In this document: positions 8,468 to 49,165 of the stretch, one piece after another
Layout: each line of letters starts with the position of its first letter
How positions within the stretch are numbered: position 1 is the first letter of the stretch
From: an uncultured Pelagibacteraceae bacterium
GTDB lineage: Bacteria; Pseudomonadota; Alphaproteobacteria; Pelagibacterales; Pelagibacteraceae
NCBI GenBank assembly: GCA_902581585.1
Contig: CACHPB010000005.1
Span: forward strand, 1-64,000
Length of the DNA stretch: 64,000 nucleotides
Direction of reading: 5' to 3'
Made by a program: the position numbers and the translations under genes
Notes under the pieces: generated by a model
Database searches by the model: none
Told to the model about the DNA's origin: nothing
The model's input: the letters and a program-made list of their open reading frames with translations, nothing else

Positions 8468-9621
8468 CTTTTAAATAATTTTTCAGATAAGTTTTGAAGT
8501 TTATCTCCCCAAAAAACTTCTTTTTGTATTCTTTTAAAATCTATATCAAAAACTGTAGACATGGCCGATGCATAAACAGATCTAGCGTCAATTGTTGAAT
8601 TTAAGTCTCTTCCCTCAAATAATTCTTTTCTCTTTAGTCCTGGCCAATCTGCATAAACCTGCGATTTTTTTAATAAACCGCCTGTCATAAAAATTGCAGA
8701 CCCATAGCCATGTTCTGTGCCACGTCCTCCATTTTGTTCTATAGTTCTACCAAATTCAGTTAGAGTTAAAACTAAAGTATTTTGAATTTCATTCCCTAGA
8801 CCCATCTCTAAACTTTTAAAAATAGAGTCCATTTCAATTAAACTATCTGAATGAGAACCATTCACTCCTCCCTGAGCAGCATGTGTATCAAAGCCATCAA
8901 CTTCAAAAACAGCAACTCTTGGACCATTTATTTTTTTTAATTCCAAACCTGCTTTTAATGCTAAAGATGAATTTTTTCTAGACATTGAAGTTCCACCACT
9001 ACTCATCGTTGACCTATTAGCTATTATTTCCATCATGTTAGCTAGGTCATGTTCAGATTTTTCAGCATAAATTGATTTTAAAAGTTTTAAAAGTTCTGTT
9101 CTTGGAAGTCTTTTCTTTGATGGATAAAAATTATCATTACTTGGAATACCTCTAAGTAGTAAAGGCATCGGTAAAGCTAATGCAAGGCCATCTCCTTTTA
9201 ATTCTGCTAACTTCATTCCTCTTCCTAGCCAACCAGTTTTGACAGCATAAGGAATATGTCCACCTGTCTCCATTAAATTTTGTCCATCAAAATGTGATCT
9301 TTTAGTATATGGAATATTTGTTGCATGAACGACTGCTCCTAGATTCTTTTTCCATAAATTATGAAAATTTTTTAATTTAGGATGTAGAGCAAAATCAGAA
9401 TCTAGCTTAATTGTTCGATCTAAAATTAAATCTTTTCTTCTTTTTTCGAAATTTTTGTCACCAATTATTGGGACAGCGCACAAACCATCCATTCCACCTC
9501 TTAACATTATAACTACAAGATTTTTTTTCTTGTCTGTATTTGCTAAAACTGGAAAATTAAAACCAGCAAAAAATAACGTAGTGGCTGACCCTTTTAAAAA
9601 ATTTCTTCTTGATATCTTCAT
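8464..9621 (-). CDS. DUF1501 family protein with Tat-like signal
   Basis: 385 aa; MKISRRNFLKGSATTLFFAGF, VIMLRGGMDGLCAVPI, EVDGFDTHAAQGG, LTEFGRTIEQNGGRGTEHGYGSAIFMTGG. Confidence 0.9.
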   Translation of the reverse strand: MKISRRNFLKGSATTLFFAGFNFPVLANTDKKKNLVVIMLRGGMDGLCAVPIIGDKNFEKRRKDLILDRTIKLDSDFALHPKLKNFHNLWKKNLGAVVHATNIPYTKRSHFDGQNLMETGGHIPYAVKTGWLGRGMKLAELKGDGLALALPMPLLLRGIPSNDNFYPSKKRLPRTELLKLLKSIYAEKSEHDLANMMEIIANRSTMSSGGTSMSRKNSSLALKAGLELKKINGPRVAVFEVDGFDTHAAQGGVNGSHSDSLIEMDSIFKSLEMGLGNEIQNTLVLTLTEFGRTIEQNGGRGTEHGYGSAIFMTGGLLKKSQVYADWPGLKRKELFEGRDLNSTIDARSVYASAMSTVFDIDFKRIQKEVFWGDKLQNLSEKLFKS

Positions 9622-31815: not shown

Positions 31816-32967
31816 TTATTTAGAAAATAGGTTGAAGAATCTTTCAAAAAACCCTGATTTTTTTGACTTTTTTTTCGTTTTTAAAAGAAAACTTTCTTTA
31901 CTCTTAAAATAATCAAGACCGACTTCACAAACAAGGGAATCATTTTCATCATAAGTAATTATTTCTGATATTACTTTGTTAATTTTCAATTTATAATTGT
32001 TTATTAAAAACTTTGACCCCCCACCCGTAACAATTAATACTGGTTTTGACATAAAATTAAGACTTTTAATTATATTACTTTTTAAAAAAACTAAATCAAT
32101 TATTTCATTTACTCTCGCTTCAATGATCTGCCTAAGTAGTTGAGTAGATAAATTTTTTTCTGAAATTTCACTAATTAAATTTTTTTCTTTTAATTTATCT
32201 TTGTAAAGATACATTTCATTTTCTAATTTGTTAAATTTTATTTTTAAATCTTCAGAATATTCAAAACTTATATTTAAAACTTTAGCAATATCTTTTGAAA
32301 TATGATTACCACCCAAGGGAATTGATTTAAAAAACTCGAATATCCCGTTGTTGAATACTAAACTACTAGTTCGCTCATAACCTACATCTAAAAAAATTAG
32401 AGGATTATTACTTCTTGATTTTTTTTTGTAAGAAATAGATTTAATATAACTTGAACAAAATATATTTAATACGTTTAAATTATTTTTTTTAAATGTATTT
32501 TTTATATCGTCAATTAATGTTTTTTTTAAACATATAAATTTAATCTCTAATATTAAAGAATTAATTTTTATATCTCCAATAATTTTATCTAGCTTTTTAT
32601 TTTCATCTACAAAAATATTTTTAATAACTAAATGAATTATCTTATCTTTAAAATTATTTTGAGAAATTAAAAAATGTGCCTCTTCTATTAAATTATCATA
32701 AACTGGTTTAATTGATGTAGATTGATCAAATACTTTTTTTATTGATATATCTAAAGAATGATAGTTAGCAGAGTCATATAAAACAATGATGTTATCAATA
32801 TGAGTAGATAAATTAATTTCTGCATCCCTTATGAGTGTGTTTAAAGATTCCTCTAAACTTATATTAATTTTTTTCTTTGAAAAATAGACGCTTTTTTTGT
32901 CTTGATTAAAAATGCCTAATTTTAAATTTTGAGATCCATAATCTATTACAGCATTTAAATTATCCAT
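31816..32967 (-). CDS. ftsA: Cell division protein FtsA
   Basis: 383 aa; NAVIDYGSQNLKLGIF, FLDVGYERTSSLVFNNGIFEFFKSIPLGGNHISKDIA, VLIVTGGGSKF. Confidence 0.85.
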   Translation of the reverse strand: MDNLNAVIDYGSQNLKLGIFNQDKKSVYFSKKKINISLEESLNTLIRDAEINLSTHIDNIIVLYDSANYHSLDISIKKVFDQSTSIKPVYDNLIEEAHFLISQNNFKDKIIHLVIKNIFVDENKKLDKIIGDIKINSLILEIKFICLKKTLIDDIKNTFKKNNLNVLNIFCSSYIKSISYKKKSRSNNPLIFLDVGYERTSSLVFNNGIFEFFKSIPLGGNHISKDIAKVLNISFEYSEDLKIKFNKLENEMYLYKDKLKEKNLISEISEKNLSTQLLRQIIEARVNEIIDLVFLKSNIIKSLNFMSKPVLIVTGGGSKFLINNYKLKINKVISEIITYDENDSLVCEVGLDYFKSKESFLLKTKKKSKKSGFFERFFNLFSK

Positions 32968-33654
32968 TATTATTTGTTAAAATGATTTGATTTAGTACTC
33001 TTAAATCTATGATTTTTTTATCTATCAAATTAATATTATCTGATAAATTTTTATAAATTTTTATTGATTCATCAATGTTTTGAGAAGGTAACTTTAATGT
33101 TACTCCACTGTAAAATAACAAATCCCACCTTTTATTTTTAAAATAGTAATATTCTCTAATTTTATTTATATCTAAGCGATTATTATTTAAAATATTTATC
33201 AGTTCTAGAAATTCTTTAACATTAAAATCCCCATAAATTGTTGATACATTTTTTGTTTCAAAAACTTGATTAGATTTTATAAATTTCCCATTTTTACCAA
33301 CATATAAATTTTCTTGGTTTACAAAAGTTTTGCCAAGAATAGATGTTTTGGATAAATCAATGTTGATTGTAGAAGGTATTATCTTTCTAACGTATATTTT
33401 ATCTAAAAAATTAAATTTATTAAGGGCTCTCAAAATTTTATCCTCATTAAGTTCAAATATATTTGTATTTTTAAAATTTTTTAGTTCATTTTCTATTATT
33501 TTTTTCTCATTGATAGGAAGACCAATTATATTAATTTGTTTGATTAAAAATTTGTTTTTATAAATTTCTAAAAATTGGAGGTTTATTATTGAAGATAGAA
33601 AAATAAAAAAAATAGATATAGGTATAATCTATATTTATTTATTGATTGATGCAT
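32960..33654 (-). CDS. ftsQ: Cell division protein FtsQ, apparently split across two frames (ATG 33654 frame joins main frame by -1 shift at T8 run 33605-33612)
   Basis: Track ORF starts inside POTRA domain; same frame reads upstream to 33628 (IIPISIFFIFLSSIINLQFLEIYKNKFLIKQINIIGLPINEKKIIENELKNFKNTNIFELNEDKIL RALNKF...) with no ATG/GTG/TTG; alternate frame gives MHQSINKYRLYLYLFF just before. Confidence 0.7.
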
Positions 33655-34555
33655 CTTTGATTATTTCTTGTACAAGTTGAAAAAAATTTATATTAGAATA
33701 TTTTGCAATTTCTGGAACTAAAGAGAGTGAAGTCATACCAGGTTGTGTGTTTAATTCTAAAAGATAAAATTTATTATTATAAAATCTAAAATCTGATCTA
33801 GATACACCCCTACAGTTTAAAAGCTTGTGTGCTTTCATTGCTATACCATTAACTATATTAAAATTTTTTTCACTTATATTCACAGGAATAATATGTTTTG
33901 TTTTAGCACTAGCACTATATTTTGCTTTATAATCATAAAATTTCCTTTTTGGTTTTAACTCTATTATACCTAATTTTTTATTTCCTAAAATAGCAGCCTG
34001 GATTTCTCTACCAGGAATGTACTTCTCAATTAAAACTTCTTTAAATTTTTCTAATTTAAGTAAATTTTTTTTAAAATTTTTTTTATTTGTTATTTTTACA
34101 CCTACACTTGACCCTTCATTAATTGGTTTAATAACAACTGGAAATTTTAATTTTTTTTTAATTTTTTTAATTAGATTTTTTAAATTTAAATTATTTTTAA
34201 AAACAAATTTAATATAAGAAGGTGTTAAGATATTGTTTTTTATAAACAACTTTTTTGATATTTCTTTATCAATTGCAAGCGAAGACGACAAAACTCCAGA
34301 ATGTGTATACTTTACTTTTTCTGACTCAAGAATTGCTTGTATATAACCATCTTCTCCATATCTTCCATGCAGTAGATTTAAAACTAAATCTGGCTTAAAT
34401 TTTCTTATTGTATTAACAAGATTTCCATCAGGTTCGGCTACTAATAAATTATATTTACTTCTTTTTTTTAATTCTCTTGTAACACTTTTCGCTGTAATTA
34501 AACTTATTTCTCTTTCATTTGAATATCCACCAGCTAGAATTAAAATTTTTCTCAT
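33635..34555 (-). CDS. ddl: D-alanine--D-alanine ligase
   Basis: 306 aa; LAGGYSNEREISLITAKSV, LLHGRYGEDGYIQ, PVVIKPINEGSSVGVKI, LELNTQPGMTSLSLVPE. Confidence 0.95.
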   Translation of the reverse strand: MRKILILAGGYSNEREISLITAKSVTRELKKRSKYNLLVAEPDGNLVNTIRKFKPDLVLNLLHGRYGEDGYIQAILESEKVKYTHSGVLSSSLAIDKEISKKLFIKNNILTPSYIKFVFKNNLNLKNLIKKIKKKLKFPVVIKPINEGSSVGVKITNKKNFKKNLLKLEKFKEVLIEKYIPGREIQAAILGNKKLGIIELKPKRKFYDYKAKYSASAKTKHIIPVNISEKNFNIVNGIAMKAHKLLNCRGVSRSDFRFYNNKFYLLELNTQPGMTSLSLVPEIAKYSNINFFQLVQEIIKDASINK

Positions 34556-48709: not shown

Positions 48710-49165
48710 TTAGTTATTAAGTTTTTGCTCCCATTTAAGGTTAGCCCTATAAATATTTGATTTTTTTCTAGCAGTGACCCTAAATTTTTCAAAAATTGCT
48801 GGTTCCCATATTTGGAACGTTTTTCCCTGACCAACAAACAACATACTATTTTTTATTTTTGCGTGTTTTAATAATTTCTCTGTAATTTGTATTCTTCCTT
48901 CACTATCAAATTGTAAATTAATACTTTCTGATAGTATTGAAGTTGCAAAATAATCTTTCTTATCTTCAAATGGATTTAATGAGTCTATTGCATTAGAAAT
49001 TTTTTCAATTCTATCTTGAGGCCAAGCCTCAATTGACTGATTATTAAATGATGGAAAACATACAATTCCGTTATATCCCATATTAGAGAGATAGCTTCTA
49101 AAACTAGCAGGCACTGACACCCTCCCTTTTTTGTCTAATTTGTTCTCGTAAGTAGATAAAAACAT
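48710..49165 (-). CDS. mraZ: Transcriptional regulator MraZ
   Basis: 151 aa; FLSTYENKLDKKGRVSVPASFRSYL, LQFDSEGRIQITEKLLKHAKI. Confidence 0.95.
   Translation of the reverse strand: MFLSTYENKLDKKGRVSVPASFRSYLSNMGYNGIVCFPSFNNQSIEAWPQDRIEKISNAIDSLNPFEDKKDYFATSILSESINLQFDSEGRIQITEKLLKHAKIKNSMLFVGQGKTFQIWEPAIFEKFRVTARKKSNIYRANLKWEQKLNN

Follow-up and report, generated by a model that had tools for sequence, protein, structure and literature searches.

The ftsQ locus and its split frame

The stretch of DNA analysed here (64,000 nucleotides, hereafter the window) is part of an 84 kb contig of 28% GC in the draft genome of a marine SAR11-type bacterium, an assembly of 29 contigs and 1.26 Mb in total that is 82% complete. 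On its minus strand ddl, ftsQ and ftsA follow one another in that order, and ftsQ is divided between two reading frames. The features of the locus are as follows.

33635 to 34555, minus strand: ddl (D-Ala-D-Ala ligase), intact, overlapping the start of ftsQ
33586 to 33654, minus strand: zero-frame 5' part of ftsQ, 22 codons from the ATG to a TAA, encoding a basic N-tail and the start of a TM helix
33605 to 33612, minus strand: T8 run at the break between the frames; 8 of 18 close orthologues have T9 here
33604 to 33610, minus strand: T_TTT_TTA heptamer, incidental; found in frame within 205 of 649 genes, unconserved in orthologues
32960 to 33628, minus strand: main part of ftsQ in the -1 frame, encoding the remainder of the TM helix, POTRA_1 and FtsQ_DivIB_C
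31816 to 32967, minus strand: ftsA, intact, overlapping the end of ftsQ

The zero-frame part starts at an ATG (33654) inside the end of ddl, begins MHQSINKYRLYLYLFFL and reads MHQSINKYRLYLYLFFLFFYLQ before a TAA (33588-33586) is met. The -1 frame is open for 222 codons (33628-32963), begins with an ATT right after a TAG and stops at 32960-32962; a scan for ATG, GTG, TTG and CTG from 33628 downwards found none before the TTG at 33433. Pfam matches in this frame to POTRA_1 (FtsQ-type, 25.6 bits) and FtsQ_DivIB_C (31.9 bits), both above cut-offs, together with the ddl-ftsQ-ftsA order identify the split gene as that of the FtsQ/DivIB cell division protein, and it is the sole match to FtsQ_DivIB_C in the whole assembly. 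The N-terminal TM helix is taken from reading the sequence rather than from a prediction tool. Joining of the two frames gives a protein colinear with its relatives and gap-free, the window being one base short.

An earlier note on this DNA had described ftsQ as split at the T8 run (33612-33605), with an ATG overlapping ddl and a TAA soon after the run, a downstream frame open to 33628 that is preceded by a TAG and has no usual start before the TTG at 33433, and a T_TTT_TTA heptamer (33610-33604) at which a -1 shift would join the frames. This description is accurate in each respect. As explanations the note offered a homopolymer indel (“the most prosaic”), transcriptional slippage on the run, programmed -1 ribosomal frameshifting and a rare ATT start; the first of these stands, while programmed frameshifting, the ATT start and slippage as a conserved device find no support in the comparisons below.

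ftsQ in related genomes

The ddl-ftsQ junction was read in 18 orthologues with 55-63% identity to the window FtsQ. In all 18, ftsQ is intact in a single frame of 230-232 codons and starts at an ATG equivalent to 33654, which overlaps ddl and opens a basic N-tail. Translation from a rare start, such as the ATT at 33628, is consequently hard to credit and is considered extremely unlikely: this ATT does come directly after the TAG, but its use would drop the tail that the close relatives all encode from their ATG, and no ribosome-binding site can be seen.

At the position of the T8 run, T9 with an intact frame, as the earlier note anticipated for an assembly error, is found in eight orthologues (G005, G031, AG-337-O05, G068, G078, G238, G239 and G293). 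The others vary: T10 (G072), T12 (G287), T8 that is nevertheless in frame (G111, G148 and G087), T7 (G308), T6 followed by CTA (G004, G303 and G071) and an interrupted run (G315). The normal ftsQ of the clade runs through this part of the TM helix in one frame, as FFF-I or FFL-I. The base missing from the window would most simply be a T; one A of TTA-ATT, the arrangement of G111, is formally possible.

More widely, ftsQ matches are present in 47 of 61 related genomes and in 206 of 300 genomes of the genus, and the remainder may reflect incompleteness or divergence from the query. Nearly all the matches listed for these 61 and 300 genomes are single open frames of ~219-250 codons. Short frames in G311 and G088 were rejected as lesions because the contigs end there, as was a stop inside the match in G242 and G146, where ftsQ is intact on reading. 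One Pelagibacter assembly (G025, contig C9) does have a split ftsQ, but there an independent deletion removed one base from another run (A7 in GATATAAAAAAATTTT), and the site of lesion in ftsQ is therefore not conserved. Viral contigs, searched with Ddl, yielded no further ddl-ftsQ junctions, a scan of genome contigs gave two loci with the junction in only one, and a literature search for split ftsQ in SAR11 found no paper.

The gene itself is not eroded. Identity to the clade is 0.588 for FtsQ (0.636 within the clade), 0.593 for FtsA (0.615) and 0.816 for Ddl (0.839), such that divergence of FtsQ is in line with that of its neighbors. The private changes in the window ftsQ still favour codon position 3, and the gene is open throughout outside the T8 run. 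The lesion is therefore either very recent or not real.

The slippery heptamer and transcriptional slippage

The sequence at the run conforms to the X_XXY_YYZ pattern of programmed -1 frameshifting, with T_TTT_TTA in the zero frame, and is identical in heptamer and phase to the HIV-1 gag-pol site (U_UUU_UUA). A -1 shift there would yield the colinear protein, but is it a recoding signal? This genome has 274 in-frame copies of the heptamer, spread over 205 of 649 genes, and 838 A/T runs of 8 or more lie inside the 651 CDS sampled. With runs so abundant and the heptamer so common, loss of a T from a T run will very often leave T_TTT_TTA behind; chance would put the heptamer there, and finding it tells little.

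The recoding that the earlier note entertained is likewise at odds with the 18 close orthologues, in which ftsQ is intact in a single frame and read without a shift, and the split frame and its slippery site are not conserved. Nor did the stimulatory stem-loop that it suggested looking for emerge, as fold energies fall within those of shuffled sequences over 101 nt downstream (z = -0.09) and over 60 nt (z = -1.42, with a weak A-U hairpin starting ~30 nt downstream), and neither a G+C-rich stem nor a Shine-Dalgarno-like stimulator was seen in the sequence. Unlike the gag-pol site, that of ftsQ is thus unconserved and lacks a stimulatory structure, as befits a by-product of an A/T-rich genome, and programmed -1 ribosomal frameshifting at U_UUU_UUA is judged highly improbable.

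Among the mechanisms of rescue, only transcriptional slippage has a real precedent. Transcripts of E. coli and Buchnera acquire single-nucleotide insertions in A/T runs at a frequency that grows exponentially as the runs lengthen (PMC5574713). For the frameshifted genes of Blochmannia, an AT-rich insect endosymbiont, rescue by transcriptional slippage has been proposed, and that account cites earlier work in which ~30% of transcripts were full-length (PMC3017870). The likeness to Blochmannia vafer dnaX, dnaG and others lies in a single-base poly-A/T indel in an otherwise intact, expectedly essential gene of a small AT-rich genome (PMC3017870). If the T8 were real, RNA polymerase slippage could add a U to some transcripts and so supply enough full-length FtsQ. 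The low GC of the contig (28%), the many long A/T runs, the undecayed state of ftsQ and the direction of the change, an insertion being what would restore the frame, are all consistent with this. However, T8 is short for efficient slippage, for which an A/T run of usually 9 or more and mixed transcript lengths are the criterion, and it is also only T8 in comparison with the endosymbionts. No transcription error restored a frame in the data of PMC5574713, the split state occurs in no close relative, and two further frameshifts of this genome (see below) need a deletion rather than an insertion for restoration. Whereas some Blochmannia frameshifts are common to species or populations (PMC3017870), the SAR11 ftsQ lesion is private to one draft assembly. 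In Citrobacter rodentium, tssM is likewise prematurely interrupted as read from the genome, and two length variants are reported to arise there by transcriptional frameshifting (PMC4256274), whereas the ftsQ split is unconserved. Rescue of ftsQ by slippage is very unlikely, and it seems very improbable that the population truly has T8 and that this free-living SAR11 lineage makes FtsQ only through slippage on it, as has been proposed for insect endosymbionts. Were the lesion real and fixed, a streamlined bacterium living freely would rely on transcriptional slippage for an essential division gene.

One-base indels elsewhere in the genome

Comparison of ~924 kb of the genome with the proteome of G012, a single-contig and nominally complete member of the genus, revealed two further genes broken by one base in a homopolymer. 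On contig C10 (~8,625, within ~8,610-8,650) an EamA-like transporter gene, so labelled from its sequence and not by a family search, has an extra T giving T8, where G087 and G148, ~95-97% identical here, have T7. On contig C2 (~54,955) a gene with an HHEVFH motif has an extra A giving A7, where G031, 98.5% identical here, has A6. With ftsQ this makes at least three lesions, a lower bound since the HSP-based scan misses those near gene ends (including ftsQ itself, until a start-codon test was added). The C10 and C2 lesions are insertions and that of ftsQ is a deletion; such scatter in both directions, over different genes and sites, is what random homopolymer errors or mutations would give. Among the CDS of the window's own 84 kb contig that were compared with three relatives, no gene besides ftsQ turned out to be broken.

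With the close relatives intact, a lesion of exactly one base in a run, no decay in the rest of the gene and two similar lone indels in the assembly, the split is very probably a sporadic one-base contraction of a homopolymer in a single draft assembly and not recoding, and such an indel accounts for all the observations. The indel is probably an error of amplification, sequencing or assembly; a real mutation that arose recently and is confined to the cell or population sequenced comes next and is less likely. Because FtsQ is normally essential, an error is easier to accept than a mutation that the cell tolerates. Short-read assemblies are, however, seldom wrong at T8-T9, which leaves some room for a real mutation, and one that is deleterious may be present where a single cell was sequenced. 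We infer that reads or conspecific genomes would show an intact run. An artefact or private indel amounts only to a caution: in AT-rich draft genomes chance is expected to place a “slippery site” where an essential gene is split, and a look at relatives should come first.

Several other candidates were set aside. The remaining broken-gene flags on the window's contig come from ORFs that lie antisense to real genes or from relatives whose starts are over-extended, and an apparent frameshift at C2 ~48,900-49,000 reflects a pair of neighbouring ABC-transporter genes whose counterpart in the relative is a single gene.

Two side observations concern gene content. The HHEVFH-motif gene of C2 is present only in G000 and G031 among twelve close genomes. 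On contig C9 (10071-14063) a pyruvate dehydrogenase E1 (AceE-type, 1021 aa) carries an N-terminally fused lipoyl domain and is followed by an E2 of 308 aa that starts MSDQTIKTSASPKVRKFARELG and has no lipoyl domain; Biotin_lipoyl has one further match elsewhere in the assembly, on C7. The matching E2-type protein of G012 is 419 aa long, with ~120 more N-terminal residues, and a domain relocation is possible.
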